From a bacterium (GTDB taxonomy: Bacteria > Pseudomonadota > Alphaproteobacteria > Rhodobacterales > Rhodobacteraceae), in assembly GCA_016124195.1 (NCBI GenBank), contig WGOE01000012.1, positions 1-64,000 of the forward strand: a stretch of 64,000 nt of DNA, read 5' to 3'. Below are positions 3,431 through 22,095 of the stretch, piece by piece. A model generated the notes under the pieces. It did not search any database, had not been told where the DNA came from, and worked only from the letters and a program-made list of their open reading frames with translations. Numbering within the stretch: the first letter of the stretch is position 1; the number at the start of each line of letters is the position of its first letter. The translations under genes were made by a program, and so were the position numbers.

Positions 3431-3590
3431 GGCGCCGGCGCTTTTGATGTGGAGGCCCTGCGGTATGCCACCGAGCGCTTCGCCCCGGTTTGCGGGGCTG
3501 CGATCCTGGCCCGCTTTGCCGAAGTCGGGGGTGGCAAGCGGCCTGACCGGCCGGAATTGACCTTGACCCGGCACTTTTGTGCCATCTAGA

Positions 3591-3613
3591 TGTCATAACG
3601 AGTCTGTCATAAC
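3591..3613 (+). promoter_or_regulatory. Direct repeat TGTCATAAC, candidate operator upstream of the MFS gene
   Basis: TGTCATAAC occurs at 3591-3599 and again at 3605-3613, a 14-base period, just upstream of the transporter start at 3636. TTGACC hexamers at about 3557 and 3563 could act as -35 elements. The repeat could bind a regulator of the plus-strand catabolic run; this is inference from position only. Confidence 0.35.
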
Positions 3614-3635
3614 AGATTCTGAGGTAGCCGATGAC

Positions 3636-5983: not shown

Positions 5984-6366
5984 ACTTTCACCTTTCGCTC
6001 GACTATAGGGTGCCGACCGGATGCCTCGAGCCGTTTTTCGAGGGGTTGCGGAATGGCGTCGCTCTGGCAGAGCGCTGCGAGGCCTGCGGTCGCGTGCAAT
6101 TTCCGCCCGGCGGCGTTTGCGGTACTTGCGGAGGGGCGTCGCTGGGCTGGGTCACCCTGGCGGGAACCGGTACGGTGATCTTGCGGACCGACACGCCCGA
6201 CCGAACCTTCGCCCTGGTCCGGTTCGACGGCGCGGCAAATGCAGCACTCGTCGAGATCGCCAACCCGGCGGTGCAAACCGGCCCTGGCATGCTGATGCCA
6301 CCGCCCGAAGGCCCGCCGCGCCTGTTCTTTGCCCTGACAGATCCTGCGGAGACACCTCATGCTTGA
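5980..6366 (+). CDS. Zn-ribbon/OB-fold acyl-CoA-associated protein (DUF35 type)
   Basis: 128 residues. An N-terminal rubredoxin-like zinc ribbon has two CxxC pairs, CEACG at about residue 33 and CGTCGG at about residue 47. A short OB-fold follows (WVTLAGTGTVI, then TFALVRFDGAANAALVEI). This family forms complexes with thiolase-like subunits and supplies an acyl-CoA-binding channel. The GTG start overlaps the thiolase-like stop, and the C-terminus overlaps the ligase start at 6359, so partnership with the preceding gene is strongly implied. Confidence 0.88.
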   Translation: MNFHLSLDYRVPTGCLEPFFEGLRNGVALAERCEACGRVQFPPGGVCGTCGGASLGWVTLAGTGTVILRTDTPDRTFALVRFDGAANAALVEIANPAVQTGPGMLMPPPEGPPRLFFALTDPAETPHA

Positions 6367-8014
6367 AGAATGGTCCAAAACTGACCTGGCCCGCATCGGG
6401 CTGATGCGGACGACGACCGGGCTCGAGATCGTCATCCCCCCGGATGCCAACATCTACCACATGACCGTCGGCGCCCAGATCGCGGCGGGTCGTGGTGGCG
6501 CCCCTGCGATGCGGTTCGAACATGCAGATGGACATGTCGAGGTCTGGACCTTCGCAGAGATCGATGCCGCAGCCACCTCGCTCGCGGCACGCCTGCGCAA
6601 CCTCGGTGTGCGGTTCGGCGATCCGGTCGGCGTGCATACCGGCCTGCGACCCGAGACCGGCATCGCGCATATGGCGATCTGCAAGCTCGGCGCGGTGGCG
6701 GTCACGCTGTCGCAGCTTTACGGCCCGGACGCGCTGGCCCATGCGCTCAACCACTGCGCCGCGCGCGTCCTTCTGACGACCGAGACCGGGTGGGCGCCGC
6801 TGCGGCCGACCGCACCGGCCGCCTTCCCGCATCTGCAAACGGTTCTTGTCGCCGGATCGACAGGCGCCGAGGACGACCTGCGCGGGGTCATGGCTGCGCC
6901 GCCACCCGCCGATTTCAGGGCAGAGTTTGGCGCGACCGAGGATGTGGCGCTGCTGATGTATACCTCTGGCTCGACCGGCATGCCCAAGGGCATCCGTCAC
7001 GGTCATCGCGTGCTGGCCGCCTATCGCCCCTCGATCAACCTGTTTTTCAACCTGTCGCTGGACAACGCCGACGCGGTGTTCTGGTCGCCATCCGATTGGG
7101 CGTGGGTCGGCGGTCTGCTCGACATGCTGTTTCCGGCGTGGCTTGCCGGCCGGCCGGTGGTGACGTCCGAAGCGCGATTTTCCGCGGAATGGGCGTTTGA
7201 TTTCATGGCGCGCCACCTTGTCACCCACAGCTTTCTGGCCCCGACGGCAATCAAGCGGCTGGCACAGACCCCGAACCCGCGCGAAGAGCACGACCTTGCC
7301 CTGCGTGTCATCTGTACCGGGGGCGAAGCTCTGCCGGCCGATACTCTGACCTGGGCCGAGACGCGCCTTGGCGTGGTCTGCAACGAATTCTACGGCATGA
7401 CCGAGGTCAACCACCTGATCGGGAACTGCGCAGCCCTCTATCCGCGCAAGCCCGGCAGCATGGGGGTGGCCTATCCCGGCCATCAGGTCAGGCTCGTCGA
7501 TGCCGAGGGGCAAGAAGTGCCGCGCGGCGAGGCGGGCGAGATCGTGACGCCCGCAACCGCACCGACCCGCTATCTGGGCTATCTTGATGCGCCGGAAAAA
7601 GAGGCTGACTTGCGCCTCGGCCCCTGGATGCGGACCCATGATCTCGCGACGCAAGATGCGGACGGGTATTTCTGGTACAAGGGCCGTTCGGACGACCTGA
7701 TCAAGTCTTCCGGCTTTCGCATCGGGCCGACCGAGATCGAGGAATGCCTGATCGCACATCCCGCCGTCGCCGAAGCCGCCGTGATCGGCAAGCCCGATGC
7801 CGACAGGGGCGCGATCGTGAAGGCCTTCGTGCGCCTTGCCGCGGGTCATCAGGCCTCGGAGGCCCTTTCCATCGCCCTGACCGACCATGTGCGCAGCCGG
7901 CTCGCCCCCTACAAGGCGCCGCGCGAGATCGCCTATGTCGCGGAATTCGAGATGACATCCTCCGGCAAGATCAACCGAAAGGTGCTGCGTCAGCGCGAGG
8001 AGGCGGCGAAATAA
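6359..8014 (+). CDS. AMP-forming acyl-CoA synthetase (acetyl/medium-chain type)
   Basis: 551 residues of the adenylate-forming family; it activates a carboxylic acid to acyl-AMP and then acyl-CoA. Visible motifs are the P-loop LLMYTSGSTGMPKG at about residues 200-213, NEFYGMTEVN in the middle, DGYFWYKGRSDDLIKSSGFRIGP with the hinge, and a C-terminal SGKINRK containing the catalytic Lys. It starts inside the DUF35 gene. As the last gene of the MFS-thiolase-DUF35-ligase block it probably makes the CoA thioester used by the thiolase-like complex. The chain specificity cannot be read by eye. Confidence 0.9.
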   Translation: MLEEWSKTDLARIGLMRTTTGLEIVIPPDANIYHMTVGAQIAAGRGGAPAMRFEHADGHVEVWTFAEIDAAATSLAARLRNLGVRFGDPVGVHTGLRPETGIAHMAICKLGAVAVTLSQLYGPDALAHALNHCAARVLLTTETGWAPLRPTAPAAFPHLQTVLVAGSTGAEDDLRGVMAAPPPADFRAEFGATEDVALLMYTSGSTGMPKGIRHGHRVLAAYRPSINLFFNLSLDNADAVFWSPSDWAWVGGLLDMLFPAWLAGRPVVTSEARFSAEWAFDFMARHLVTHSFLAPTAIKRLAQTPNPREEHDLALRVICTGGEALPADTLTWAETRLGVVCNEFYGMTEVNHLIGNCAALYPRKPGSMGVAYPGHQVRLVDAEGQEVPRGEAGEIVTPATAPTRYLGYLDAPEKEADLRLGPWMRTHDLATQDADGYFWYKGRSDDLIKSSGFRIGPTEIEECLIAHPAVAEAAVIGKPDADRGAIVKAFVRLAAGHQASEALSIALTDHVRSRLAPYKAPREIAYVAEFEMTSSGKINRKVLRQREEAAK

Positions 8015-8015
8015 T

Positions 8016-8068
8016 TTGACAGTACCAATCTGTATATACTAATCCTTGCGAACGATGGGGTGAAGTGG
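8016..8068 (+). promoter_or_regulatory. Promoter/operator region before the sugar-pathway genes
   Basis: TTGACA at 8016-8021 is a consensus -35. A TATACT-like element (8035-8040) and TAATCC follow, although TATACT is only 13 bases away, so the exact -10 is uncertain. The perfect 8-base palindrome GTATATAC (8032-8039) resembles GntR-family operator cores and could be a site for the GntR/UTRA protein encoded at 11492. This is the first clear gap in the run and probably starts a second transcript. Confidence 0.5.
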
Positions 8069-8914
8069 ATGAAATTTGGAATTCATGCCGGCCTCTGGAT
8101 GGCTCAATGGACCGAGGATCCTTCGCCCCTTTTCGCGCGGGCGGCTGAAATCGGCTTTGACGGGGTGGAGGTTTCGCTGCTTGGCATCGACCTTGCCGCG
8201 GCCCCCAGGCTTCGCAAGGCAGCGGCCGAAGCCGGCGTGGCACTGACCTGCTCCACCGGTCTTGGCGCAGCGCAAGACCCCACGTCCGAGGATGCCGACA
8301 TCAGGGCCGCGAGCCGCGCCGCCTTGCACCGCGCGATCGAGGTGACGGCGGCGCTTGGCGCGGGGTCGCTCGCCGGGGTTGTCGCTGCACCCTGGGGCGT
8401 GTTCGACCCCGCCCGCAAGGCCGAGCGCGCGGCGCGGTCGGCCGAGACCCTGGGGCAGATGCAGCCGGTCCTCGTTCGAGAGGGCGTCACTTTGGGGATA
8501 GAGGCCCTCAACCGCTTCGAGACCGACCTGACCTGCACCGCGGCCGAGGCGGCGGGCATTGCGCGGGCCTCGGGTGCGGCGAATGTCGGCGTGCTGCTCG
8601 ACACGTTCCACATGAACATCGAGGAAAAGGATCCTCCCGCCGCGATCCGCGCGACAGGCGCCAAGCTGGTGCATTACCATGTGTCGGACTGCGACCGCGG
8701 CGTGCCCGGTCACGCGCGTTACGATTTTGCCGCCGATGCGCGGGCGCTGCGCGAGATCGGCTATCAGGGCTGGATCGTGGCCGAGATGTTCGTGCGGCCC
8801 GGTTTTCCGTCGAGCCGCGACCTGAACATCTGGCGCGCGATCGAACCCGATCCCGACCGGGCGGCCACCGAGGCGCTGGCCCATATGCGGAGGGTCTTTG
8901 CCCATGACGGCTGA
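8069..8914 (+). CDS. Sugar-phosphate isomerase/epimerase family protein (TIM barrel)
   Basis: 281 residues of the xylose-isomerase-like TIM-barrel family (IolE/hexulose-6-P epimerase type). Family features include IGFDGVEVSLLG after strand 2, the strand VTLGIEALNRFETD with a metal-binding Glu, VGVLLDTFHMNIEEKD with Asp and His ligands, and VHYHVSDCDRG with a further His. An in-frame GTG at 8060 exists, but the ATG at 8069 gives the typical MKFGIHAGLW start. It is followed by dhaL with an 11-base overlap, so it is likely an isomerase or epimerase feeding the kinase and aldolase. It could equally be a dehydratase-like member. Confidence 0.85.
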   Translation: MKFGIHAGLWMAQWTEDPSPLFARAAEIGFDGVEVSLLGIDLAAAPRLRKAAAEAGVALTCSTGLGAAQDPTSEDADIRAASRAALHRAIEVTAALGAGSLAGVVAAPWGVFDPARKAERAARSAETLGQMQPVLVREGVTLGIEALNRFETDLTCTAAEAAGIARASGAANVGVLLDTFHMNIEEKDPPAAIRATGAKLVHYHVSDCDRGVPGHARYDFAADARALREIGYQGWIVAEMFVRPGFPSSRDLNIWRAIEPDPDRAATEALAHMRRVFAHDG

Positions 8915-9449
8915 AAGCTACTTTCGCGCGCTTCTTGCCCGGGCGCAGGACCGGATGCAGGAATTGAACAGCCTCGACGCTGCCCTTGGCGACGGGGACC
9001 ACGGCACGACCCTGGTCCGCGGCCTGACGGGTGCGGTTGCTGCCGGCCCGGGTCTGCGGGCGAAACGCTTCATGCGGACGTCGGGCGGTGCCTCGGGCAC
9101 GCTCTTCGGTCTTGTCCTGCACGAGATCGAAGGGCATCTAGATCACGGCGCGGGCCTTGGCGCGGGGCTCGAGCGGGCTCTGACACGGATCTGCGAGTTG
9201 GGAGAGGTCCGGCCCGGCGACAAGACCATGGTCGATGCCCTGGCGCCGGCGGTCGCAGTGCTGACCGGGGGCGGATCGCTACGTGCGGCCGTCACGGCGG
9301 CTGCCGCCGGGCGGGACGCCACCCGCCTTCTGCCCGCACGGCGCGGTCGTGCGCAATATGTCGAGGGCGGCGGCGTCGGGCATCTCGATCCCGGCGCGGT
9401 GTCGCTGGTCATGCTGATCGAGACTTTGGACGCACAGGTGCCAGAGTGA
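8904..9449 (+). CDS. dhaL: Dihydroxyacetone kinase-type subunit DhaL (nucleotide-binding)
   Basis: 181 residues. The Mg-nucleotide motif LDAALGDGDHG, the SGGASGTLFG loop, PGDKTMVDAL and the C-terminal RGRAQYVEGGGVGHLDPGA are all diagnostic of DhaL. DhaL binds ADP/ATP and phosphorylates the ketose held covalently by DhaK. The ATG at 8904 is preferred over an upstream TTG. It overlaps the isomerase upstream and DhaK downstream (GTGA). No PTS component (DhaM, EI, HPr) is present, so direct ATP use is more likely than PEP-dependent phosphorylation. The real substrate may be a longer ketose than dihydroxyacetone. Confidence 0.9.
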   Translation: MTAESYFRALLARAQDRMQELNSLDAALGDGDHGTTLVRGLTGAVAAGPGLRAKRFMRTSGGASGTLFGLVLHEIEGHLDHGAGLGAGLERALTRICELGEVRPGDKTMVDALAPAVAVLTGGGSLRAAVTAAAAGRDATRLLPARRGRAQYVEGGGVGHLDPGAVSLVMLIETLDAQVPE

Positions 9450-10474
9450 AGAAACTGTTCAACAGCGCCGGGACCATGGTCGATGACATGATCGACGGCT
9501 TCGTCACAGCCTTTCCGCAGGTCCGTCGCGGTGTGCTGGATCCAAGGATCGTCGTGCGTCGGCGTCATCGCAAGAACCCTGACGAGAAGGTAACATTGCT
9601 TATCGGCAACGGCTCCGGCCACGAGCCCATAGCGATGGGGTTTGTCGGACAGGGCATTCTGGATGCCAATGTCGTGGGCGACGTCTTCGCCGCCCCCTCG
9701 GCCGATCTGATCCTGGACGGCATCCGTGAGGTGACGGGCAAGGCCGGCTCGATCCTGTTGATTTCGCGCCACTCGGGCGACGTGATCAACGGCCGCGCGG
9801 CCGCGATGCTGGCGGCGGAGGATGGCCTGAGGGTCGCGCCGCTTCTCATGTATGACGACATTTCCTCGGCGCCGCGCGACCGGCGGTCGGATCGCCGGGG
9901 CGCGCCGGGCACCATGTTCATCTACAAGATCCTTGGCGCGGCGGCCGAAGAGCGCCAGCCCCTTGCTGAACTCGTCACGCTGGGCGCGGCGGTGCGCGAG
10001 CGCACGGTGACCCTTGCCGCCGCGATAAACCCGGGCATTTCGCCGCTGACCGGCGCGCCGATGTTTTCCTTGCCCGAGGGCGAGATCTACCTGGGGATGG
10101 GGGTCCACGGCGAGCCGGGCATCGGGCGGATGAAGGCGGGGCCGGTGCGGGATTTGGTCGAGACGATGGTCGCGCATTTGCTGGACGACCGGCCCATCGC
10201 GGCCGGCAAGCGCGTGGCGGTGATCGTCAACGGCATGGGCGGCACGACCATGATGGAACTGCTGACCGTCTGGTCCGAAGTCGAGCGGGCCCTGACCGCC
10301 CGGGGTCTGCGCCCCGTCGCCCCGATGATCGGCAGCTACGTGACGACGCAGGAGACGGCCGGTTTCTCGATCTCGTTGCTCGAGCCGGACACGGAAATGC
10401 TGCGACTGTGGTGCGCCCCGTCCGAAACCCCGGCCTTCCCGCGGATCGAGGTGATGCCGGAGGACCGGGCATGA
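9446..10474 (+). CDS. dhaK: Dihydroxyacetone kinase-type subunit DhaK (ketose-binding)
   Basis: 342 residues. It carries GNGSGHEP (residues about 52-59), the domain signature GILDANVVGDVFAAPSA, and MGVHGEPGIGR with the His at about residue 221. In DhaK this His forms a hemiaminal bond to the ketose carbonyl, and the position is close to that of the E. coli enzyme. The GTG start overlaps dhaL. DhaK/DhaL homologues act on dihydroxyacetone and also on tetruloses and other ketoses. An upstream isomerase and a downstream LacD-type aldolase suggest a ketose phosphate that is then cleaved. The segment SSAPRDRRSDRRGAPGT matches the usual arginine-rich loop. Confidence 0.9.
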   Translation: MKKLFNSAGTMVDDMIDGFVTAFPQVRRGVLDPRIVVRRRHRKNPDEKVTLLIGNGSGHEPIAMGFVGQGILDANVVGDVFAAPSADLILDGIREVTGKAGSILLISRHSGDVINGRAAAMLAAEDGLRVAPLLMYDDISSAPRDRRSDRRGAPGTMFIYKILGAAAEERQPLAELVTLGAAVRERTVTLAAAINPGISPLTGAPMFSLPEGEIYLGMGVHGEPGIGRMKAGPVRDLVETMVAHLLDDRPIAAGKRVAVIVNGMGGTTMMELLTVWSEVERALTARGLRPVAPMIGSYVTTQETAGFSISLLEPDTEMLRLWCAPSETPAFPRIEVMPEDRA

Positions 10475-11394
10475 CGGCGGGCCGGTCACTCGCCCGGTGC
10501 AAGCCGATCCACGGGATCGCCGTCGATCAGGGCAGCGGGCTTGGCGCCTTGTTGCGCGCGGCCCGTGGCGCTGCTGCAGATGCGCAAGACCTCTTCACCT
10601 TCAAGCGGATCGTGGCGGCAACGCTGAGCCGCCGCGCCACGACGCTGTTGGTCGATTCCCACTTTGGCCGGGCGCTGCTGCCCGCGATCCAGCCGCCCTG
10701 CCGGCCGATGCTGGCCTATGAGGCGGATGTCTACCGGATCACGAACGAGGATCGCATCACCGTTCTGCCGGAAAATCTGATGGTTTCCGACTATCCCGCT
10801 CTGGGGGTCGAGACGCTGAAGTTTTTTCTGTACTACGCCCCGAACGATCCGGCCGAGGTCAATGGCAGAAAGCAGGACCTTGTGCGACAGATCGGGCGGG
10901 AGTGCCGAGAGGCGGGGGTGACCTTTCTGTTCGAGCCGATCATTTATGACCGCGCGATCCCCGATGGCGCTTCGGCCGCCTTCGCGCGCGCCAAACCTGG
11001 TCTGGTGGAGCGGGCGACCCGCACCTTTGCCGACCCGGTCTTTGGCATCGACATCCTGAAGGTCGAACTTCCGGTCAACCTCGACCATGTCGCGGGGATC
11101 GGCCGGCCGACCCTGACGCAGGCCGAGGCCGAGGCCGCCTTCATCCATGCCGCCGCGGCGGCCGGCAATGTGCCGCTGCTTTATCTGAGCGCGGGCGTCA
11201 GCTTTGCCCGGTTTGAAGAGGGCCTGCGCATGGCCCGCCGCGCCGGCGTTGATCCCGCCGGTTTCATGTGCGGGCGCGCGATCTGGAGCGATGCGGTGGG
11301 CATTTTCGGCGCAGACGGTCCCGCGGCAGCGGAACGCTGGATGGAAGACGAAGGGCTGCGGCGCCTTGATCGGCTGGCGGAGGCCTTGGCATGA
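10471..11394 (+). CDS. LacD-type class I aldolase (tagatose-1,6-bisphosphate aldolase family)
   Basis: 307 residues, slightly shorter than LacD. Family landmarks are AVDQGSGL near the N-terminus, VTFLFEPIIYD, FGIDILKVELPVN with the likely Schiff-base Lys at about residue 197, LLYLSAGVSFARFEEGL and GFMCGRAIW. LacD relatives cleave ketose-1-phosphates or bisphosphates, and one relative, YihT, cleaves sulfofructose-1-phosphate. All yield DHAP plus an aldehyde. The start at 10471 overlaps the dhaK stop by four bases. Placement directly after a ketose kinase strongly suggests it cleaves that kinase's product; the aldehyde product is unknown. Confidence 0.85.
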   Translation: MTAGRSLARCKPIHGIAVDQGSGLGALLRAARGAAADAQDLFTFKRIVAATLSRRATTLLVDSHFGRALLPAIQPPCRPMLAYEADVYRITNEDRITVLPENLMVSDYPALGVETLKFFLYYAPNDPAEVNGRKQDLVRQIGRECREAGVTFLFEPIIYDRAIPDGASAAFARAKPGLVERATRTFADPVFGIDILKVELPVNLDHVAGIGRPTLTQAEAEAAFIHAAAAAGNVPLLYLSAGVSFARFEEGLRMARRAGVDPAGFMCGRAIWSDAVGIFGADGPAAAERWMEDEGLRRLDRLAEALA

Positions 11395-11495
11395 GCGCGC
11401 GGCCTCACCTGGCGGCGACGCGGACTTTGTGGAGAAATCAGCCCGGTTATGATCTGCCTTTACCTCTCGATAGCATCAGGAAGACAGCGACGTGA
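11391..11495 (+). CDS. Possible 34-residue coupling ORF
   Basis: A tiny frame begins MSARPHLAATRTLW at an ATGA overlap with the aldolase stop and ends at a TGA that overlaps the GTG start of the GntR gene. It bridges an otherwise 97-base gap, so it could couple translation of the regulator to the aldolase. The peptide resembles nothing I recognise, and chance cannot be excluded. Confidence 0.25.
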   Translation: MSARPHLAATRTLWRNQPGYDLPLPLDSIRKTAT

Positions 11496-12229
11496 ACAAG
11501 CCCATGATTCCCAAATACATGACCGTCCACGATGAATTGCTCGGGCGGTTGAAGTCGAACCAGTATTCGGTCGGCACCCGGCTGCCTTCGGAAGAGACGC
11601 TGGCCGACATGTTCGGCGTCAGCCGTGTGACCATCCGCAAGTCGCTGGAAATGCTGGTCGATGCGGGCTACCTCGTCTCACGGCAGGGCAGCGGCTATCA
11701 CGTCAACAGCCTCTCGCCGCCCGAGGTCACCTGCCTTGAATCCTTCACGGATGCCGTGCTGCGCAAGGGCAGGGTTCCCGGCGCGAAACTGATCGGGATC
11801 GACGCGCCCTTCAGCCCGCTGCCCCCCGATGTGGCCGAAGTGTTCGATGCCCCGGTCGCGCGGATCCGCAGGCTTCGCACCGTGGATGGCAGACCCGTTA
11901 TGCTGGTGACCACCTGGGTGCCCACCGCGCTGGTGCCGGGCCTTGCCCCCGACGCCTTTCCCGATAGCGGACCCGGGCAATCGATCCTGCGGATCCTGAC
12001 CGACCGTTTCAAGGTGGAATGGTCGCGCGCCTGCGAGATCGTGACGCCCTGTGCCGCGCCCGAGGATGTGGCGGACCTTCTGAACGTGGCGCCGCACACA
12101 CCGATCCTGTCACAGGCCTGCACCGCCTTTGACGCGCAGCAGCGCCCGGTTTTCCATGATCAGGTCTTTCGGGCCACGCCGATCACCTACACTTTGGCCG
12201 GTTCGGTCCGCAAGGCCAACCCCCTTTGA
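11492..12229 (+). CDS. GntR-family regulator with UTRA domain
   Basis: 245 residues (HutC/FarR type). The N-terminal winged helix-turn-helix is about residues 8-75 (YSVGTRLPSEETLADMFGVSRVTIRK, then GYLVSRQGSGYHV). A C-terminal UTRA ligand domain follows, which usually binds a sugar phosphate or small acid. The GTG start has AGGAAG at 11478-11483; an in-frame ATG at 11504 is a weaker alternative. Lying inside the operon between the aldolase and the isomerase, it is the likely local repressor. A palindrome at 13696 and the GTATATAC at 8032 are candidate operators. Confidence 0.9.
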   Translation: MNKPMIPKYMTVHDELLGRLKSNQYSVGTRLPSEETLADMFGVSRVTIRKSLEMLVDAGYLVSRQGSGYHVNSLSPPEVTCLESFTDAVLRKGRVPGAKLIGIDAPFSPLPPDVAEVFDAPVARIRRLRTVDGRPVMLVTTWVPTALVPGLAPDAFPDSGPGQSILRILTDRFKVEWSRACEIVTPCAAPEDVADLLNVAPHTPILSQACTAFDAQQRPVFHDQVFRATPITYTLAGSVRKANPL

Positions 12230-12241
12230 ACGGAGGAACGC

Positions 12242-13666
12242 ATGTCCCTGACTGTTGGTGTGATACGCGGATCGCTTCCCAGCTATTTTCCGGCGCGGTA
12301 CGGGGTCTTCGAAGCCTGCCTCGAGGCGGTCGCTGACTTGGCGGAGCCATCCGGCATTCGCGTTGTGACAGCGCCGGGCGTGCCGATGAACGGGGCCGAG
12401 GCTCATGCGGCAGTCGCGTATTGCAAGGCTGAAGGGGCCGGTTTCATCCTTCTGGTTCATGGCGGTTTCACCATGGGCGACGTTGCGCGCGCCATCGCGC
12501 TTGGCGGACTGCCGATGGGGGTCTGGGCCACGCCGGAGCCGATCCACGAAAACGATATCCAGCTGAACAACTTTGTCTCGCTGAACATGAGCATGTCGAT
12601 CGCGCGCGGTGTCCGCGACCTGGTTGAACAGCCGGTGCAGTGGTATTTCGGCGCGCCGCGCGACCCGGCCCTGCGCGCGCGCCTCGCGCGGAGCCTTCGT
12701 GCGCTGTCGGCGCGGCAGGCGCTGCGGGGGGCGCGGATCGGCGTGGTCGGCGGGCTTGCCCCCACATTCTATAACATGGCCGTCTCGGGCGATGACCTCG
12801 CGCGGAAGCTGGGTGTCGAGCAGGTGCATGTGGACATGCACCGGATGACCGCGCGCATGGCCGCGGCCGGGGCGGAGGCGGTGAACCGGGAAGTGGCGGC
12901 CATGGCGCAAAGGGGCGTCGTGCGCGGTATTTCCGACGGTCAAATGGCGCAGACCGCCCGTGCGGCGCTGGCGCTGCGCGAGATTGCGGCGGCCGAAGGC
13001 TTCGATGGGCTTGCGGTGTCGGACTGGCCGGCGCTGCAGGAAGACCCCGGGATGCACCCCGGCGCCGCCTTCAGCTGGCTGGAGGAGGTTGACAACCTGG
13101 CCATCGCGTCCGAAGGCGACGTGCTGGGTACGGTGACGCAGATCGTCACCCGGTCTCTGACCGGGCGTGTCGGCTGTCTGCTCGACATGACCTCGCCGCA
13201 GTTTGACGCCGACCGCATCCTGATGTGGCACGGCGGCGGCGGGCCTCTCTACATGGCAAGGGACGGCAAGATCGCCTGGATCAACCACCCGATGATCGGC
13301 AGGGGGTCTCCGGATGGCCCCGCCTTCGGTGCCATCGCGGATTTCGAATTCGCCGACGGACCGCATACCGTGCTGCGCGTCGCACGCAGCGGCACGGCCG
13401 CCTTCGCGGTCGAGGCACGGGTCGCCGCCGGTGGAGAGACCGGATTTACCGGCTGTCGTGGCTGGGTCACAGGCTTCACCGACCAGGGTCGGAGCCACAG
13501 TGCCGCCGATATCGTGACCACGGTGATGGAGCACGGTCTGGAGCATCACTTCGTTCTGGCCCCGGGAAGCTGGGCAAGCGATTTTCTGGAATTCGCCAGC
13601 TGGAGCGGGCTTCGTTCCCTTCCCGTCGTGCCGGCGCATGACGGTTTGCCCCTGCGGCGGGGCTGA
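12242..13666 (+). CDS. L-fucose/L-arabinose isomerase-like protein
   Basis: 474 residues. The N-terminal part resembles FucI/AraA-like Rossmann regions (GFILLVHGGFTMGDVARA, then RIGVVGGLAPTFYNM). The C-terminal part has a likely metal site: LAIASEGDVLG with Glu/Asp, CLLDMTSPQFD and ILMWHGGGGP with His. These enzymes interconvert aldose and ketose using Mn2+. GGAGG lies six bases upstream of the ATG. It is followed by a promoter and ABC transporter genes. With the kinase and aldolase upstream it fits the ketose-forming step of the same pathway, although the substrate and activity are inference. Confidence 0.75.
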   Translation: MSLTVGVIRGSLPSYFPARYGVFEACLEAVADLAEPSGIRVVTAPGVPMNGAEAHAAVAYCKAEGAGFILLVHGGFTMGDVARAIALGGLPMGVWATPEPIHENDIQLNNFVSLNMSMSIARGVRDLVEQPVQWYFGAPRDPALRARLARSLRALSARQALRGARIGVVGGLAPTFYNMAVSGDDLARKLGVEQVHVDMHRMTARMAAAGAEAVNREVAAMAQRGVVRGISDGQMAQTARAALALREIAAAEGFDGLAVSDWPALQEDPGMHPGAAFSWLEEVDNLAIASEGDVLGTVTQIVTRSLTGRVGCLLDMTSPQFDADRILMWHGGGGPLYMARDGKIAWINHPMIGRGSPDGPAFGAIADFEFADGPHTVLRVARSGTAAFAVEARVAAGGETGFTGCRGWVTGFTDQGRSHSAADIVTTVMEHGLEHHFVLAPGSWASDFLEFASWSGLRSLPVVPAHDGLPLRRG

Positions 13667-13671
13667 ATCTG

Positions 13672-13751
13672 TTGACAAGAGAATTGGCCCATGTGAATTT
13701 GTAATAACAAATTGAGGTGTACAAAAATTTCATGGGGGAGGGGGAAAAGGT
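13672..13751 (+). promoter_or_regulatory. Promoter with 18-bp palindromic operator for the ABC transporter genes
   Basis: A consensus TTGACA sits at 13672-13677. Seventeen bases on, the putative -10 (13695-13700) is overlapped by the perfect inverted repeat AATTTGT-AATA-ACAAATT at 13696-13713. A regulator bound there would block RNA polymerase. The nearby GntR/UTRA gene is the natural candidate. GGAGG at about 13737-13741 serves the GTG start of the ATPase gene. Confidence 0.7.
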
Positions 13752-14801
13752 GTGACGCAGGTCGAGCTGAGTGCCGTCAGAAAGCAGTTCGGCGGATACG
13801 TGGCGATCGACGAGATCGATCTCGACGTCGCGTCAGGCGAACTGGTTGCCTTGCTCGGCCCCTCGGGCTGCGGCAAGACCACCACCCTGCGCATGATCGC
13901 GGGACTGGAACGGCCGACCGCGGGAGAGATCCGGTTCGACGGCAAGGATGTGTCGGAGGTGCCCGTCCAGGACAGAAACGTGGGCATGGTATTTCAGCGT
14001 TATGCGCTGTTTCCGCACATGACGGTTGAACGCAATGTGGCGTTCGGGCTCAGCGTGCGCGGATTGCCCAAGGCGGAAATCGAGGCACGTCTGGACGAGA
14101 TGCTCGAAGTCGTCCAGTTGCAGGCGTTCAGAACCCGGTTTCCGGCGCAGCTTTCCGGCGGACAGATGCAGCGCGTGGCGATTGCGCGCACACTGATCAC
14201 CAAGCCCTCGGTATTGATGATGGACGAGCCGCTCGCCAACCTCGACACCGCGCTGCGCGGCGAGATGCGGCGCTTCATCCGTGCGCTGCAGCAGCGCTTC
14301 GGCATCACCACGATCTTTGTGACCCATGATCAGGTCGAGGCGATGGAATTGGCGGACCGCGTCGCCGTGATCTTCAACGGCCGCCTCGCGCAATACGACA
14401 CGCCAGAGCGGATCTATCGCAGGCCCGCCTCGCTGGAAGTCGCCCATTTCATGGGGGCGGCGAATATCTTCCCGGGACGGCTCGTTGCGCGCGACCGCAT
14501 CGAGACGGACTTGGGTCTGCTGGAGTGTACGCCTCTTGCGGGCATGGATGTCGGCGCGACAGTGCATGCCATGCTGCGGGGTGAAGCGCTTGAGATGACG
14601 ACCGAACCGCCGCCCGCCGGTCGGCAGGCCATCCGCGGAAAGATCGCATCGCGCGATTTCTTCGGGGCCAGCGTGACCTATGGCGTCAGATGCGGTTCTC
14701 AACAGGTGACCGTCACCGAGAATGCCCGCCGGATGGTCGATGTCGGCGCGGAGGTCTGGCTCGACATAGCGCCTGAGCATGTCTGGCTCATCCGCACATG
14801 A
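13752..14801 (+). CDS. ABC transporter ATP-binding protein (Pot/Ynj type)
   Basis: 349 residues. Walker A GPSGCGKTT at about residues 38-46, Q-loop MVFQRYALFP, signature LSGGQMQRVAIAR, Walker B VLMMDEPLANLD, then the H-loop FVTHDQVEAM. A C-terminal TOBE-like domain follows from about residue 240. It powers import with the binding protein and two permeases encoded next. It starts at GTG 13752, preceded by a G-rich Shine-Dalgarno. ATPase-first order is typical of polyamine/iron/phosphonate-type importers and differs from the sugar importers elsewhere in the window. Confidence 0.93.
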   Translation: MTQVELSAVRKQFGGYVAIDEIDLDVASGELVALLGPSGCGKTTTLRMIAGLERPTAGEIRFDGKDVSEVPVQDRNVGMVFQRYALFPHMTVERNVAFGLSVRGLPKAEIEARLDEMLEVVQLQAFRTRFPAQLSGGQMQRVAIARTLITKPSVLMMDEPLANLDTALRGEMRRFIRALQQRFGITTIFVTHDQVEAMELADRVAVIFNGRLAQYDTPERIYRRPASLEVAHFMGAANIFPGRLVARDRIETDLGLLECTPLAGMDVGATVHAMLRGEALEMTTEPPPAGRQAIRGKIASRDFFGASVTYGVRCGSQQVTVTENARRMVDVGAEVWLDIAPEHVWLIRT

Positions 14802-14854
14802 ATTCTGAACAACACCAAGAAGAAACTGCCAACAACTGACATGGAGGAGCAAAA

Positions 14855-16201
14855 ATGAAACTCGGAATTTCCCTGTTCGGGGTGCTGGCCATGTGCACGG
14901 CACAAGCCGCATGGGCCGACGTGCCTGCCAGCGCAGCCCTGCGGGACGGCTTCATCGCCGGCAAGCTGGACTGGTCGGCCGTCGAAGCCCGCGCCAAGGA
15001 AGAAGGCAAGGTCAACCTGTATTACTGGGGCGGGGATGACACGCTGAACGTCTGGATGGACAGCGTGGTGGCCCCAGCCATGGCCGCGCAGGGCATCAAG
15101 CTCAACCCCGTCCGGGTGACCGCCACCAAGGACGCGGTCGATCTGGTTCTGGCCGAAAAGAACTCGGGCAAGGGGGTCGGCGAGGGGAGCGTCGATCTGA
15201 TCTGGGTCAATGGCGACAATTTCGCCACCCTCAAGCAGCAGGGCGCGCTTTATGGCGGTTTCGCCCAGCGGCTTCCCAACGCCAAGAACCTTGAATGGGA
15301 TCCCAGCGATCAGCGTGCCCTGCTGAACCTGCGCGATTTCGGCGTCGAGACGAACGGAACGGAAATGCCGTGGTCGGGCGAAGAGTACAATTGCTCGGTG
15401 AATTCCAAGCGGGTGGCGGATGCCGACATTCCGCACGACTTCGATGCACTCAAGGCCTATCTCGAAAAGCACCCGGGCAAGTTCACCTATGTCAAGCCGC
15501 CGCATTACATCGGCAACACCTTCGTCGAGGAAGCGATCTACGCGCATAACCCCGACGGCACCGGGGCCGCGCCCTTCCAGCAGTCGCTGAGCGAGATCAA
15601 GCCCGAGGAACTCGCCCGCCTGATCGCACCCGGTCTTGAATACCTCAAGTCGCTGGAGCCATTACTCTTGAACGGCGCCAGCGGAAGCCCGAATTACCCC
15701 GAGGACAACAAGGCCATCGACGGGCTGTTCCTGAACGGCGAGATCGACTTCAACTGCAAATTCGGGCTTTACGGCGTGGCGAAGGGGCTGTCGACCGGCA
15801 CCTATCCCGAGGGCGCCAAGCAGTTCGTGTTTCCCAAGAACACGATGATCAAGAACAAGAACTACCTCGTGATCCCGTCCAATGCGCCTGACGGCGCCGC
15901 AGCGATGGTTCTTGCGAACTGGATGTCTTCCGTCGAATCGCAAGCCTCCAAACTCAAGGAGGTCGGCATGCCCTCCGGGATCGACAGCTGGAAGCTGAAC
16001 AAGACGGACGCCGACCTTATCGCCTCGTCCTCGCCGGGGCTCGTCGGGGTCACCCAGGATGAAATGGACGCCAATGCCGCACCCGACACCAATGCGACGC
16101 TGGTGAACGTGATCAAGGCCACGTGGCTGGAATACATCGAACGCCACAACCCCGCGCCCATCGCGCAGATCGTGGCCGAGGCCTACAAGACTGCGAAGTA
16201 G
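14855..16201 (+). CDS. YnjB-like extracellular solute-binding protein
   Basis: 448 residues with a clear signal peptide ending AAWA before DVPAS at about residue 22. The mature part contains LYYWGGDDTLNVWMDSVVAP and GSVDLIWVNGDNFATLK, a pattern I recognise from E. coli YnjB, the binding protein of the poorly characterised YnjBCD importer. GGAGGA seven bases upstream supports the start. It lies between its ATPase and permeases. The ligand is unknown for the family; here the neighbouring sugar enzymes and nucleoside hydrolase suggest a sugar-containing compound. Confidence 0.88.
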   Translation: MKLGISLFGVLAMCTAQAAWADVPASAALRDGFIAGKLDWSAVEARAKEEGKVNLYYWGGDDTLNVWMDSVVAPAMAAQGIKLNPVRVTATKDAVDLVLAEKNSGKGVGEGSVDLIWVNGDNFATLKQQGALYGGFAQRLPNAKNLEWDPSDQRALLNLRDFGVETNGTEMPWSGEEYNCSVNSKRVADADIPHDFDALKAYLEKHPGKFTYVKPPHYIGNTFVEEAIYAHNPDGTGAAPFQQSLSEIKPEELARLIAPGLEYLKSLEPLLLNGASGSPNYPEDNKAIDGLFLNGEIDFNCKFGLYGVAKGLSTGTYPEGAKQFVFPKNTMIKNKNYLVIPSNAPDGAAAMVLANWMSSVESQASKLKEVGMPSGIDSWKLNKTDADLIASSSPGLVGVTQDEMDANAAPDTNATLVNVIKATWLEYIERHNPAPIAQIVAEAYKTAK

Positions 16202-16215
16202 GCCAAGAAAAAGCC

Positions 16216-16242
16216 GGGATACCCCGCTAGTCGGGGTGTCCC
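16216..16242 (+). terminator. Hairpin after the YnjB-like binding-protein gene
   Basis: An 11-base stem (GGGATACCCCG / CGGGGTGTCCC, one G-T wobble) with loop CTAGT lies 15 bases after the binding-protein stop and before the permease gene. A TTTTT follows at 16253. It probably acts as a partial terminator or 3' mRNA stabiliser that gives more binding protein than permease. Confidence 0.7.
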
Positions 16243-16269
16243 TGCCCGTGTCTTTTTCCAGGACAGTCC

Positions 16270-17184
16270 ATGACGCCGGCCACCAAGACCCACCCCCTGA
16301 CCCGCCGTGAAAGGCGCGCGCGGATCCTGCTATTCGCACAGTTCGTCCCGATCTTCGCGGTTCTGGTGATCCTGTTCGGCGGAGCGCTCGTGATGGCCGT
16401 CCTGCAATCGCTGGGTTTTGCCCCGTGGTTCGGCGTCAACACCTTCCCGACGCTGGATTATTTTGCCGCACTCTGGGGCTCCGCCACCTTCTGGACCTCG
16501 CTGGGGCTGACACTTTACTACGCCACCGTCTCGACGTTTCTGGCGCTGGTCCTTGGCACGCTGCTGGCACTTGCGCTGGTCAAGACCTTTCGGGGCAAGA
16601 CGTTCTACAAGTATCTTTACAAGCTGCCCTTGATGATCCCTTACACGGTGGGAATTGCGCTGGCGGTCATCATGCTGGGCAATGGCGGGATGCTGTCACG
16701 GCTGGCCGCGTTTTTCGGCGTGATCGACGACCCGGGACAGTTCCTCCAGATCCTCAAGACGCATTACGGCTGGGGCATCATCGCGGTCTATATCTGGAAG
16801 CAGACGCCCTTCATCACGCTTGCGGTCTATGCCGTCCTGCTGGGGATTGGCCGCGAGACCGAGGAGGCCGCCGCGATTCTGGGCGCCGGGCGGCGGACAA
16901 TCTTCTTTCGGGTCACCCTGCCGCAGATCCTGCCCGGCATCGTCTCGTCCACGCTGATCTGTTTTGCCTTCAACATCGGTGCCTTCGAGGCGCCATTCAT
17001 CCTGGGCGGCGGCTTTCCCGACACGCTGCCGGTGGTGGCGTGGCGCTATTTCAACGACTCGGACTATACGCTTCAACTGCGCGGCATGGCGACCGTGGTC
17101 TCGATCGGCATCGTGTCGGGGGTGATCCTTTTCGCCTATCTAGCGGTCTATCGCACCTTCGAGCGTCGCATGGGGCGCAACTGA
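16270..17184 (+). CDS. ABC transporter permease 1
   Basis: 304 residues, about six membrane helices. The cytoplasmic EAA loop is visible at about residues 198-217 (EEAAAILGAGRRTIFFRVTL). The N-terminus is charged (THPLTRRERRARI) before the first helix LLFAQFVPIFAVLVILFGG. It forms the channel with the next permease, which starts one base after this stop. The type matches Pot/YnjC-like inner-membrane subunits. Confidence 0.9.
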   Translation: MTPATKTHPLTRRERRARILLFAQFVPIFAVLVILFGGALVMAVLQSLGFAPWFGVNTFPTLDYFAALWGSATFWTSLGLTLYYATVSTFLALVLGTLLALALVKTFRGKTFYKYLYKLPLMIPYTVGIALAVIMLGNGGMLSRLAAFFGVIDDPGQFLQILKTHYGWGIIAVYIWKQTPFITLAVYAVLLGIGRETEEAAAILGAGRRTIFFRVTLPQILPGIVSSTLICFAFNIGAFEAPFILGGGFPDTLPVVAWRYFNDSDYTLQLRGMATVVSIGIVSGVILFAYLAVYRTFERRMGRN

Positions 17185-17185
17185 A

Positions 17186-18046
17186 ATGGCGCGCAGGGAG
17201 GATATCGCGCTGACCTCGCGGCTTTCGCCGTTTCAGAGGATCTATCTCTTGCTGATCGCCGGCTTCATCGTCGGCCCCTTCCTGCCGCTCATCATCCAGA
17301 GCCTGGCCTTCCGCTGGGCATGGCCCGACCTCATGCCGGGCACCTGGTGGATGCAGCAGCGCGGGAAATCCGCGATCCCTCTGGCCTGGGACTATGTCCT
17401 GTCGCCCTATAGCCATATCTGGGAAGCGGCGATCAACACCGTCGCCATCGGCACCACGGTGACAGCGATCTGCCTCGTGATCTGCCTGCCCGCCGCGCGG
17501 GTTCTGGCACGCGAGCGGTTCCGCGGCAAAGGCGCCTTCGAGTTCTTTCTGTCCCTGCCGCTGATCGTGCCAGAGGCCGCAATCGGGATGGCGCTTCTGA
17601 TGATCTTCATCCGGCTTGGTCTGGCCGGCAGCTTTTTCGGCATCGTGATCGCACATCTGATCCCCACCATTCCCTACATGGTGCGGATGCTGACTGCCGT
17701 TTATCAGGGGCTTGGCAAGGATTTCGAGGAACAGGCCATGATCCTGGGCGCCCGGCCCATGCAGATCCTGTTCCGGGTCACTTTGCCCATGCTGTTGCCC
17801 GGCGTCGTTGCGGGTGCGCTGTTCACCTTTCTTGTCTCGACCAACATCTTCCTGCTCACCTTCTTTCTGGGGCAGGGCAAGATCATCACGCTGCCGACGC
17901 TGCTGTTTGCCAAGATATCCGGCGGCACGCTTGATGCCTCGGCGGCCGGGATCACGCTGGTCGTCACGCTGCCCGGTATCGTTCTGCTTCTCATCACCGA
18001 ACGGTTCATCAAGGAAGAGGCCTTTGGCAAGGGCTTCGGCAACTGA
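17186..18046 (+). CDS. ABC transporter permease 2
   Basis: 286 residues with about six helices. The EAA-type loop is FEEQAMILGARPMQILFRVTLPM at about residues 178-200, the site that docks onto the ATPase. The ATG at 17186 is one base after the previous stop, so the two permeases are translationally coupled. The final segment GIVLLLITERFIKEEAFGKGFGN is a normal permease tail. It is followed 15 bases on by the nucleoside hydrolase gene. Confidence 0.9.
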   Translation: MARREDIALTSRLSPFQRIYLLLIAGFIVGPFLPLIIQSLAFRWAWPDLMPGTWWMQQRGKSAIPLAWDYVLSPYSHIWEAAINTVAIGTTVTAICLVICLPAARVLARERFRGKGAFEFFLSLPLIVPEAAIGMALLMIFIRLGLAGSFFGIVIAHLIPTIPYMVRMLTAVYQGLGKDFEEQAMILGARPMQILFRVTLPMLLPGVVAGALFTFLVSTNIFLLTFFLGQGKIITLPTLLFAKISGGTLDASAAGITLVVTLPGIVLLLITERFIKEEAFGKGFGN

Positions 18047-18060
18047 AGGGGGTATTCCCA

Positions 18061-19170
18061 ATGACCACATCTGCCGCTCTGCTGGCCCGGTTTCCGAAAC
18101 TCGACCCCGATATGGTTCGCGCGCGCCTTGACTGGCCGGGTCCCTTGCCCCGGGTCATCATCGACACCGATACCGCCAACGAGATCGACGACCAATATGC
18201 CCTCGCCTGGTCGCTGCTGTCGCCCGAGCGCATGGTCCTGGAAGGTGTCACGGCAGAGCCGTTCTCCTTTGCCCATCACCGGGACGGCCTGATCCGGTCT
18301 GTCGAGATCCTCAAGAGCGGCCGTCCTGCCAGCGCGCTGGAAGAGAAATTCATGGGCGGGCTGGGCGGCTGGGCGGCGCGGCTGGTCGCGCAGGGCCGCA
18401 ATGCCGAGGAGGTGCGCTTCGTCGGCCCGCAGGAGGGCGAGCAGCTTTCCCATGACGAGATCCTGCGTATCTTTGACCTCTGCGGCGTTCCAAGCGCCGG
18501 CAAGGTCTTTCACGGTGCCCCGGGGTATCTTGCAGCGCCCGACACCCCGATCGACAGCCCGGCCGCCCGCTTCATCGTCGAGCGGGCCCGGGCCGGCGAA
18601 GGGCCGCTCTATATTCTGGCCATGGGGGCGGTGACCAATATCGCCTCGGCGCTGCTGATGGCGCCCGACATCATCGAAAAGATCGTGGTTGTCTGGACCT
18701 CGGCCTTTCCGTCCTATGCGCCGTTCTGCAACCGTCCGTCGCTGAACCTGGTGCAGGATCTGCCAGCCTCGCGGCTTCTGTTCGACTGTGGCGTGCCGCA
18801 TGTCTATCTGCCCGGCTATCACGTGGGCGCCCAACTGAAGATCTCGCTGCCCGAGATGGAGCAGTTCGTGAAGCCTCACGGTCGGATCGGCGCCTATCTT
18901 CACCACCTTTACACCTGCAATCCCCTGCACGCGATGTTCGCCATCACCGGGGCCGCGACCAAGACCTGGGTGATCTGGGATATCATAAACGTGGCCTGGC
19001 TGTTCGATGCGACCTATGTGCCGACCTTCCTGACGACCTCGCCGCAACTCGATGCCGATCTTTACTGGCAGCACCCGCCGCACCGGCATCCGATGCGCGA
19101 GGCCTATGACGTGAACCGCGATGCGATCTTCGAGGATCTCTATCGGACACTCGCCCGCGCTCCGGAATAA
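18061..19170 (+). CDS. Inosine/uridine-preferring-type nucleoside hydrolase
   Basis: 369 residues. The diagnostic Ca2+-binding motif DTDTANEIDDQYAL begins at about residue 35. MGAVTNIASALLMAPDII is the second family signature, followed by VVVWTSAF. Such enzymes cleave an N-glycosidic bond to release free pentose and base. There is no signal peptide, so it is cytoplasmic and acts on imported substrate. It ends a cluster with an importer, isomerase, ketose kinase and aldolase, and may deliver the sugar they degrade. At 369 residues it is longer than the usual 310-320, so its specificity may be unusual. Confidence 0.87.
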   Translation: MTTSAALLARFPKLDPDMVRARLDWPGPLPRVIIDTDTANEIDDQYALAWSLLSPERMVLEGVTAEPFSFAHHRDGLIRSVEILKSGRPASALEEKFMGGLGGWAARLVAQGRNAEEVRFVGPQEGEQLSHDEILRIFDLCGVPSAGKVFHGAPGYLAAPDTPIDSPAARFIVERARAGEGPLYILAMGAVTNIASALLMAPDIIEKIVVVWTSAFPSYAPFCNRPSLNLVQDLPASRLLFDCGVPHVYLPGYHVGAQLKISLPEMEQFVKPHGRIGAYLHHLYTCNPLHAMFAITGAATKTWVIWDIINVAWLFDATYVPTFLTTSPQLDADLYWQHPPHRHPMREAYDVNRDAIFEDLYRTLARAPE

Positions 19171-22091: not shown

Positions 22092-22095
22092 GGGC

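Follow-up and report, generated by a model that had tools for sequence, protein, structure and literature searches.

We analysed a stretch of 64,000 nucleotides (the window) and found a conserved cluster of about 15 genes, which is larger than the original prediction had drawn it. All genes listed in that prediction are present as contiguous plus-strand open reading frames, but the start at 8016 had been placed too far downstream: the unit begins with an MFS gene at about 3636, and the genes for this transporter, a thiolase-like protein, a ChsH2/DUF35 protein and an acyl-CoA synthetase (3636–8014) travel with the sugar genes. Among 53 loci fetched with the isomerase, which are mutually related and not independent samples, 37 held all 14 core genes within at most 21.4 kb and 46 held at least 8 of the 14. 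That is, the expected co-occurrence in other genomes was found, and we are dealing with one conserved gene set rather than a chance neighbourhood, in which isomerase, kinase and LacD-family aldolase stay together. The genes do not scatter independently, with the exception of the LacD aldolase, which was not found in three genomes that hold the other cluster genes (G029, G129 and G130). When G000 was compared with 100 relatives, orthologues of the isomerase (54–55% identity) and of the hydrolase (58%) were confined to the same 3 of the 101 genomes (G000, G004 and G029). The cluster was met in Marinovum, Ruegeria, Roseobacter, Paracoccus, Devosia, Hoeflea, SAR116, Granulosicoccus and others, which we take to be mostly marine. 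It comes in two architectures, type I and type II, with the MFS, thiolase-like, DUF35 and synthetase genes (the CoA module) on the opposite strand in most type-II loci. We found no description of this gene combination in the open-licence papers searched, which agrees with the suggestion that it is undescribed.

The MFS, TIM-barrel and ABC units of type-I clusters carry related operator-like palindromes. The importer unit of the window is preceded by ATTTGTAATAACAAAT (13697–13712). In 1.1 Mb of sequence, 14 of the 16 occurrences of TTTGTnnnnACAAA sit 48–55 bp 5' of an ABC ATPase match, and ACAAATTTGT lies 5' of TIM-barrel genes in six of seven occurrences and 5' of an MFS gene in one, counts that apply to palindromes chosen post hoc after inspection of the same regions. 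The site 5' of the epimerase unit (8028–8043) has two mismatches in the window. The variant TCTGTnnnnACAGA 5' of the MFS gene (3602–3617) is weak, with three mismatches to ATTTGTnnnnACAAAT; among three plasmid relatives, the corresponding sites differ at 0, 1 and 1 positions, and that of the L034 MFS unit at four. No shared palindrome was found in the type-II loci. The putative controller of the cluster units would be the GntR/UTRA protein (11492–12229, plus strand; PF00392 and PF07702), which was scored in 41 of the 53 loci.

The gene at 18061–19170 (plus strand) encodes a putative ribohydrolase of the nucleoside-hydrolase fold (PF01156), whose model (pLDDT 89.3) resembles the RihA and IUNH structures. 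With RihA, RihB and IUNH it shares the fold, the Ca2+-binding aspartates (D35 in 43 of 44 cluster hydrolases, with one X; D44 and D307 in 44/44) and the water-holding asparagine (N229, 44/44). Its first motif, however, is longer (DTDxANEIDDQ) and the ligands of the 5'-OH are replaced. O5' is bound in RihA by Asn158 and Glu164 (PMC2898832); in our alignment these correspond to P221, which is Pro in 43 and Leu in 1 of the 44 cluster hydrolases, and to S227, which is Ser in all 44. Many relatives also have hydrolase-like matches elsewhere than in the cluster (any match at all in 54 of 101 genomes); the canonical enzymes are 23–37% identical to the cluster hydrolase over partial matches, and all 26 of the 26 that we examined retain both the Asn and the Glu. 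The residues in the cluster appear to point to a predicted riboside without 5'-OH, which supports the earlier suggestion that the substrate is an N-glycoside or a modified pentose. Alternatively, given an invariant N224 (44/44), the loss of these ligands could reflect a different binding mode. Ordinary ribonucleosides, whose free ribose would pass through ribulose and xylulose to xylulose 1-phosphate and be cleaved to DHAP and glycolaldehyde, the latter then giving glycolate, would fit the fold and Ca2+ site of nucleoside hydrolase type, and the early steps set out below are compatible with unmodified ribose. We nevertheless consider such a substrate very improbable, as both 5'-OH ligands are exchanged throughout the cluster hydrolases and kept in the 26 examined outside it, and as the CoA module would be useless.

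Two proteins may act on the released sugar. The TIM-barrel protein (8060–8914, plus strand, with a possible ATG start at 8069; PF01261) had been taken for an isomerase, but looks more like a ketose 3-epimerase, judging by the nearest solved structure (D-psicose 3-epimerase 2hk0, E 1.5e-43) and by conserved residues. Aligned to 2hk0, E148, D181, H207 and E242, presumably the metal site, and E154, H184 and R213, which we take to be ligands of O1–O3, are identical in at least 97% of 48 sequences. The nearest solved structures are thus D-psicose/D-tagatose 3-epimerases, whose metal and O1–O3 ligands are kept, whereas the match to the NCBIfam D-psicose 3-epimerase equivalog stays under its cut-off (193.6 versus 300 bits) and the substrate end is expected to differ. 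If the TIM barrel is the 3-epimerase, the protein at 12242–13666 (plus strand) should therefore be the aldose–ketose isomerase. The label 'FucI-like' holds for it in a wide sense only, since its sole NCBIfam match is the sulfoquinovose isomerase SftI, far under the equivalog cut-off (76.8 versus 700 bits). We found no Pfam match at E 0.001 and, with a 3-row profile, no PDB sequence match at E 0.01.

The kinase consists of a predicted ATP-binding subunit DhaL (8904–9449, plus strand; PF02734) and a ketose-binding subunit DhaK (9446–10474, plus strand; PF02733; nearest solved structure 3ct4). GDGDHG of DhaL and GMGVHGEPG of DhaK are conserved; we presume that the DhaK histidine, which is present, binds the ketose, and that GDGDHG likewise has its usual role. 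Both subunits remain under their NCBIfam equivalog cut-offs (DhaK 293.4 versus 406.25 bits, DhaL 105.6 versus 138.3 bits). DHA and tetruloses are known DhaKL substrates, and a pentulose would be new. The class I aldolase (10471–11394, plus strand; PF01791, DeoC/LacD) passes the LacD subfamily model NF009498 (244.3 bits, cut-off 184) and falls short of the lacD equivalog TIGR01232 (175.3 bits, cut-off 432.2); its nearest solved structure is 5hjl (E 1.4e-50), and it is distantly YihT-like (E about 3e-10). The sulfo-EMP pathway employs a sulfoquinovose isomerase, a sulfofructose kinase of PfkB type and the SFP aldolase YihT. It resembles the cluster in having an isomerase, a kinase and a class I aldolase for a sugar substituted at its far end, and the cluster isomerase and aldolase are distantly SftI- and YihT-like; the cluster differs by DhaKL in place of the PfkB kinase, an extra 3-epimerase, the ribohydrolase and a finish by a CoA lyase. 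To our knowledge, 5-deoxyribose salvage (the DHAP shunt) involves no epimerase, DhaKL or CoA module. It shares a 5-modified ribose, a kinase, an isomerase and an aldol cleavage with the cluster, with phosphorylation, in contrast, named first (PMC6079011). The cluster would be a new version of the isomerase–kinase–aldolase logic.

The CoA module is proposed to extend the predicted chemistry past the aldolase step. Its thiolase-fold protein (4823–5983, plus strand; start set by eye, residues numbered from base 4817) lacks the catalytic residues of thiolases: in 42 of 42 aligned sequences the nucleophilic Cys is replaced by Gly and the His of GHP by Ala. The Tyr of a YD[SA]Y motif is kept in all 42. 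In PMC12329534, a role is given to the Tyr of YD in Ltp2/Sal aldolases, and Gly in place of the nucleophilic Cys is stated for Sal. We propose that the cluster protein is a retro-aldolase-type lyase, which shares the thiolase fold, the Gly, the Tyr motif and a DUF35 partner with Ltp2–ChsH2 and Sal–Shy (same source). It differs in the third motif residue, which is Ser (17/42) or Ala (25/42) and neither the His of Ltp2 nor the Cys of Sal, in an identity of about 24%, with archaeal thiolases closest overall, and in the proposed sugar-derived substrate; the model has low confidence at 330–334, one of the motif stretches. The partner is a ChsH2-type zinc-ribbon protein (5980–6366, plus strand; PF12172, E 2e-8; scored in 39/53 loci), followed by the acyl-CoA synthetase (6359–8014, plus strand; 40/53 loci), whose best NCBIfam match is an acetate–CoA ligase below its cut-off (348.5 versus 729 bits). 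The CoA module might be a separate pathway that merely adjoins the sugar genes, as it apparently has its own transcription unit, lies on the opposite strand in most type-II loci and has weak operator-like sites in the window and L034. Yet its three enzyme genes were scored in 39–41 of the 53 loci, in both architectures, operator-like sites lie 5' of the MFS gene also in L076, L077, L078 and L030, and in L060 an analogous module adjoins a different kinase and aldolase; we consider a separate pathway improbable. An aldehyde dehydrogenase at 1275 had been suggested to accept the aldehyde: dehydrogenases 35–43% identical to it were scored in 21 of the 53 loci (none in the other 32) and lie inside the cluster in 2 of 3 annotated plasmids, but the copy in the window stands outside the unit, beside a LysR gene, and none was found inside.

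We consider it fairly probable that the cluster imports and breaks down a D-ribofuranoside with a group X in place of the 5'-OH. The recurrence of a PNP-family protein in 19 of the 53 loci (one member scanned) and the analogous CoA module of L060 speak for this reading. Ribokinase, which acts on O5, would therefore be unusable. In the order that we infer, the 5'-modified riboside would be taken up by the ABC importer, composed of an ATPase (13752–14801; PF00005), a binding protein (14855–16201) and two permeases (16270–17184, PF00528; 17186–18046, NCBIfam permease families, under the cut-offs in the rows listed), all on the plus strand. The binding protein passes NF008633 (277.8 bits, cut-off 203), which we take to be YnjB, had no PDB match at 1e-5 and is only 30–35% identical to that of type II. 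The ribohydrolase would release 5-X-5-deoxy-ribose, the SftI/FucI-like isomerase would convert the aldose to a 2-ketose of ribulose configuration (3R,4R), and the 3-epimerase would yield the xylulose configuration (3S,4R), which is that of fructose bisphosphate. DhaKL would phosphorylate O1, and the aldolase would split the 1-phosphate into DHAP and X-CH2-CHO. Conversion of aldose to ketose, phosphorylation and cleavage to DHAP plus an aldehyde, as originally predicted, are retained here. The aldehyde would be oxidized to X-CH2-COO- by an aldehyde dehydrogenase (in the window perhaps that at 1275) and activated to the CoA ester, from which the Ltp2/Sal-like lyase and its DUF35 partner would form acetyl-CoA and X. 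The MFS protein may export what remains of X.

This transporter (3636–4826, plus strand, start picked by eye within the ORF 3579–4826) has a single NCBIfam match at E 0.001, the arsenite-efflux family ArsK (53.3 bits, equivalog cut-off 400). In 16 genomes, type-I cluster MFS proteins reach 52–107 bits against the same cut-off and are the best ArsK match of their genome in 13 and the second in three; they are distant relatives only, which does not imply the ArsK function. We tentatively propose, as one speculative possibility, an arsenosugar or arsenonucleoside as substrate, that is, a beta-D-ribofuranoside whose C5 carries dimethylarsinoyl, (CH3)2As(=O)-, as X. Such compounds are made by marine algae. 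DHAP and dimethylarsinoylacetaldehyde would be formed and the latter converted to dimethylarsinoylacetate and its CoA ester, which when hydrated would resemble a beta-hydroxyacyl-CoA; the Ltp2-like lyase would break the As–C bond to give acetyl-CoA and dimethylarsinate, exported by the ArsK-related MFS protein. We know of no precedent for such As–C cleavage. The hydrolase without 5'-OH ligands, the D-ribo stereochemical logic, the ArsK-like exporter of type I, the absence of an oxygenase among recurrent type I and type II neighbours and the host genera, which we take to be mostly marine, are consistent with this substrate, as is a sulfatase in five loci, since sulfated arsenosugars exist. In urine, the thio form of dimethylarsinoylacetate has been reported as a product of arsenosugar metabolism (PMC5478658). 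Against it, the MFS protein of type II belongs to another family (two tested), and no conserved ars linkage was found with ArsJ, the one arsenic-resistance gene tested: among the fetched loci ArsJ adjoins the cluster in the window only, probably by coincidence, and it occurs in 16 of 29 cluster genomes versus 43 of 101 relatives.

5'-Methylthioadenosine and 5'-deoxyadenosine are common 5'-modified ribosides. With X a thioether or H, the cluster would salvage these or 5-methylthioribose and 5-deoxyribose, giving DHAP and (methylthio)acetaldehyde, then (methylthio)acetate, in a new version of the known 5-deoxyribose salvage. Weak MTA-nucleosidase matches in one scanned member of a PNP-family protein that recurs in 19 of the 53 loci, trimethylamine-monooxygenase-like flavoproteins in L052 and L060 that could form a sulfoxide, and the likeness of the synthetase to acetate–CoA ligase point in this direction, and known 5-deoxyribose salvage likewise comprises phosphorylation, isomerization and aldol cleavage (PMC6079011). 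However, with X as H or SCH3 there would be no role for the lyase and its DUF35 partner, no explanation would be at hand for the MFS gene or the sulfatase, and these compounds are universal in life whereas the cluster sits mostly in genera taken to be marine; we regard this substrate class as unlikely. We regard as equally unlikely that X is a carbon chain with a beta-hydroxyl, in a sugar longer than C5, and is cleaved as a true beta-hydroxyacyl-CoA by an ordinary retro-aldol reaction as in steroid side chains. No recurrent type I or type II neighbour suggests a carbon chain, and we know of no abundant ribofuranoside that carries one of this kind, although the Ltp2/Sal-type enzyme would then face no new chemistry (PMC12329534).

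From the cluster we predict that DhaKL can act as a ketose-1-kinase, that an Ltp2/Sal-like lyase takes part in the breakdown of a sugar and that a subfamily of nucleoside hydrolases serves ribosides lacking a 5'-OH. The residue signature makes this substrate class directly testable, even if it is not an arsenosugar. If the arsenosugar substrate were true, the cluster would provide genes for the conversion of algal arsenosugars to dimethylarsinate, a bacterial route that eats arsenosugar carbon and yields dimethylarsinate, and a new enzyme that cleaves an As–C bond via a CoA ester.

ORF and family searches detected all genes and families named in the original prediction, but the cluster proved larger than predicted: the listed sugar genes are joined on the upstream side by genes for an MFS protein, a thiolase-like protein, a DUF35 protein and an acyl-CoA synthetase, the latter three in both architectures of the cluster (type I and type II). 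Two labels required revision. The supposed TIM-barrel isomerase (8060-8914) is a TIM-barrel protein, but it is closest to a D-psicose 3-epimerase (2hk0, E 1.5e-43); its NCBIfam match (E 5.9e-57, 193.6 bits) falls under the cut-off of 300. Likewise, the 'FucI-like' protein (12242-13666) is present, but it gave no Pfam match and its sole NCBIfam relative is the sulfoquinovose isomerase SftI, with a score far under the cut-off. Sequence searches of the PDB found no solved relatives of this isomerase or of the binding protein (14855-16201).

Among 101 genomes (the window's own, G000, and 100 relatives), orthologues of the isomerase were found in three, and orthologues of the hydrolase (18061-19170) in the same three; 15 other genomes contained only isomerase matches of 23-29% identity. 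One scan of a genome collection with the isomerase yielded 53 loci, which are mutually related, so that their counts do not represent independent events. The expected co-occurrence of the genes elsewhere was borne out, as 37 of the 53 loci carry all 14 core genes. 19 loci are window-like (type I), 27 are type II, defined as any other locus with at least eight core genes, odd ones included, and seven have fewer than eight (L040, L045, L052, L060, L062, L067 and L074, with L040 and L045 being contigs of less than 7 kb). For single genes, the numbers of loci were: MFS 16, thiolase-like 41, DUF35 39 and synthetase 40; TIM 47, DhaL 47, DhaK 48, aldolase 43 and ALDH 21; GntR 41 and isomerase 53 (the query); ATPase 47, binding protein 44, permeases 45 and 46, and hydrolase 44. 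These scores used one identity threshold per gene and required matches to span more than half of the query; the core-gene and type counts applied those identity thresholds without regard to coverage. Missing genes in L043, L047, L055 and L070 are at least partly due to the end of the stretch, L051 and L056 appear to be contigs of the comparison genomes G004 and G029, respectively, and L052 and L059 lie on the same contig.

Three loci are plasmid-borne (L076, L077 and L078; Marinovum algicola DG 898, Paracoccus seriniphilus DSM 14827 and Parasedimentitalea marina). All three share the type-I order of MFS, thiolase-like, DUF35, synthetase, TIM, DhaL, DhaK, aldolase, ALDH, GntR, isomerase, importer and hydrolase, with the ALDH gene inside the cluster in two, and unrelated genes flank the cluster on both sides. 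In type II, the binding protein is only 30-35% identical to that of the window, and most loci carry the hydrolase, regulator and CoA genes on the other strand; in L047 the hydrolase is on the plus strand.

Related palindromes connect the type-I units. Within 1.1 Mb (window plus 53 loci), TTTGTnnnnACAAA occurs 16 times, 14 of these 48-55 bp before the ATPase match, and ACAAATTTGT seven times, six before the TIM and one before the MFS gene; both were picked after palindromes had been seen in the same regions, and the counts thus describe concentration rather than an independent test. The ABC site of the window fits its pattern exactly, whereas the TIM site deviates at two positions. The best site before the MFS gene has no mismatch in L076 and L030, one in L077 and L078, three in the window and four in L034, while 26 of 2,100 random 200-bp windows of L076-L078 contained a site with 0 or 1 mismatches. 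No common palindrome was found in 14 type-II loci, where one L041 site resembles that of type I. A HutC-type operator (GTnTAnAC) was rejected, as it precedes the TIM gene of the window once but none of the 47 TIM genes in the loci. The GntR protein would be the obvious candidate for the regulator of the palindrome-bearing units.

In the RihA inhibitor complex (PMC2898832), Asn158 and Glu164 bond O5', Asp10, Asp15 and Asp241 are among the Ca2+ ligands, and an ordered water is held by Asp10 and Asn166. HMMER alignments to solved hydrolases placed the two 5'-OH ligand positions at P221 and S227 and the water-holding Asn at N229, with the same spacing as N158, E164 and N166; this mapping ran via RihB/YeiK and plant enzymes, E. 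coli RihA itself lying outside the sequence alignments. Among the 44 cluster hydrolases, P221 is present in 43 (Leu in one) and S227, N229 and D307 in all (counting, here and for the 42 thiolase-like proteins, the window and loci with sequence over more than 60% of the query length). The canonical hydrolases of relatives kept N and E in 26 of 26 proteins read. For this control, 30 loci from a longer match list gave 29 proteins, three cluster and 26 canonical hydrolases; the selection pattern demanded the first Asp motif, where agreement is therefore built in, and the 5'-OH positions lay outside it. Bonding of the side chain is described for 19 of 19 nucleoside hydrolase complexes surveyed (PMC12648331), and the Crithidia enzyme is reported to act very poorly on deoxynucleosides lacking the 5'-OH (PMC8910321). 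The predicted structure (pLDDT 89.3) matched nucleoside hydrolases in Foldseek searches of the PDB, which here and for the thiolase-like model confirm folds only; of the 45 hydrolase sequences, 21 entered the structure alignments, and of the 42 thiolase-like ones, 17. From its residues, we read the hydrolase as a putative ribosidase acting on substrates without a 5'-OH, whose replacement group, X, may be held at the invariant N224.

The 3-epimerase keeps the metal site and the O1-O3 ligands. D-Xylulose, reached from D-ribulose, has the 3S,4R configuration; because this is the pattern of fructose bisphosphate, C3 epimerisation would fit a subsequent cleavage to DHAP. DhaK and DhaL keep their signature residues and miss the equivalog cut-offs, which allows for another substrate. 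The aldolase scored over the cut-off of the tagatose-diphosphate aldolase subfamily and was not found in three of seven genomes searched (G029, G129 and G130). An SDR-family gene recurs in 23 loci (for example L061:9229-9990), mostly directly 5' of the type-II isomerase gene; in the Albidovulum-titled L056 and L066 such a gene occupies the place of the aldolase in other clusters.

All 42 sequences of the thiolase-like protein (4823-5983) have Gly in place of the nucleophilic Cys, Ala in place of the catalytic His, and the YD-motif Tyr. Gly for Cys and Tyr as base are described for Sal-type retro-aldolases with a DUF35 partner (PMC12329534). The third motif residue is His or Cys in those enzymes and Ser or Ala in the cluster protein. 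The model (pLDDT 83.1, unsure at residues 330-334, counted from base 4817) matched thiolases first in Foldseek searches of the PDB, with Ltp2-ChsH2 and Sal-Shy also among the matches; what supports the putative aldolase assignment is therefore the residues and not the overall similarity. In L060, a member of the window isomerase's family is accompanied by a PfkB kinase, by a FucA-like aldolase, by an acetoacetate-CoA ligase over cut-off and by a thiolase-like protein with the motif YDCY; the combination of isomerase, kinase, aldolase and CoA-lyase may thus be a repeated logic. The cluster around this isomerase family (55-57%) is a different one in L052, L060 and L062, with a trimethylamine-monooxygenase/ArsO-like flavoprotein and an OYE-type oxidoreductase; thiolase-like genes occur in L060 and L062, and a ribose-type importer in L052 and L062.

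Four features would all fit an arsenosugar as substrate: the ArsK-related MFS protein, the absence of an oxygenase, a PNP-family protein and a sulfatase. Of the ArsK matches in each of 16 genomes, the type-I MFS protein ranked first in 13 and second in three, scoring 52-107 bits where the cut-off is 400; matches under the cut-off also occurred in 4 of 14 control genomes. The genes recurring around types I and II included no oxygenase. The PNP-family protein was detected at 19 loci, one member having been scanned for its family, and a C-x-P-x-R sulfatase at five (L063, L064, L065, L075 and L071). Two results count against an arsenosugar: ArsJ shows no linkage to the cluster, and both type-II MFS proteins that were scanned are similar to lactate/oxalate transporters. 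Directly downstream of the cluster (19828-23199), ArsJ, an ArsJ-associated GAPDH (both over cut-off) and an ArsR-ArsC-like fusion are encoded. We ruled these out as arsenic evidence, since such adjacency was not seen at the 53 loci, where the ArsJ query gave no match above 60 bits, and since genomes with the cluster do not clearly carry ArsJ more often: it was over cut-off in 16 of 29 cluster genomes (G000 and those of 28 of the 53 loci) versus 43 of 101 comparison genomes, which include G000, G004 and G029. We regard an arsenosugar as a doubtful candidate; the substrate may also be a sulfur or deoxy riboside, or X a carbon chain. Titles and abstract beginnings of the arsenosugar papers listed contained no description of a gene cluster for arsenosugar breakdown.

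The PNP/UDP-phosphorylase-family protein is encoded within the cluster or close to it, at L058:5182-5949 and at 18 further loci. By eye, that of L058 has Gln at the expected DeoD phosphate-binding Arg, and with this exchange it may be a hydrolase. The sulfatase has no obvious signal peptide by eye; its gene adjoins the thiolase-like gene in three SAR116-titled loci and L063, and the hydrolase gene in L071. L063 is titled Flavobacteriales, yet is nearly identical to L064. Elsewhere in the window, a low-GC minus-strand stretch (31761-33496; 0.55 for 32001-34000) contains two TadE/TadG-like ORFs by eye.

To judge from their record titles, many of the loci appear to come from marine or algal habitats. 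Overall, the conserved cluster probably encodes a pathway for a 5'-modified D-ribofuranoside, of which our literature searches found no description. The proposed pathway would be a variation on the isomerase-kinase-aldolase logic.
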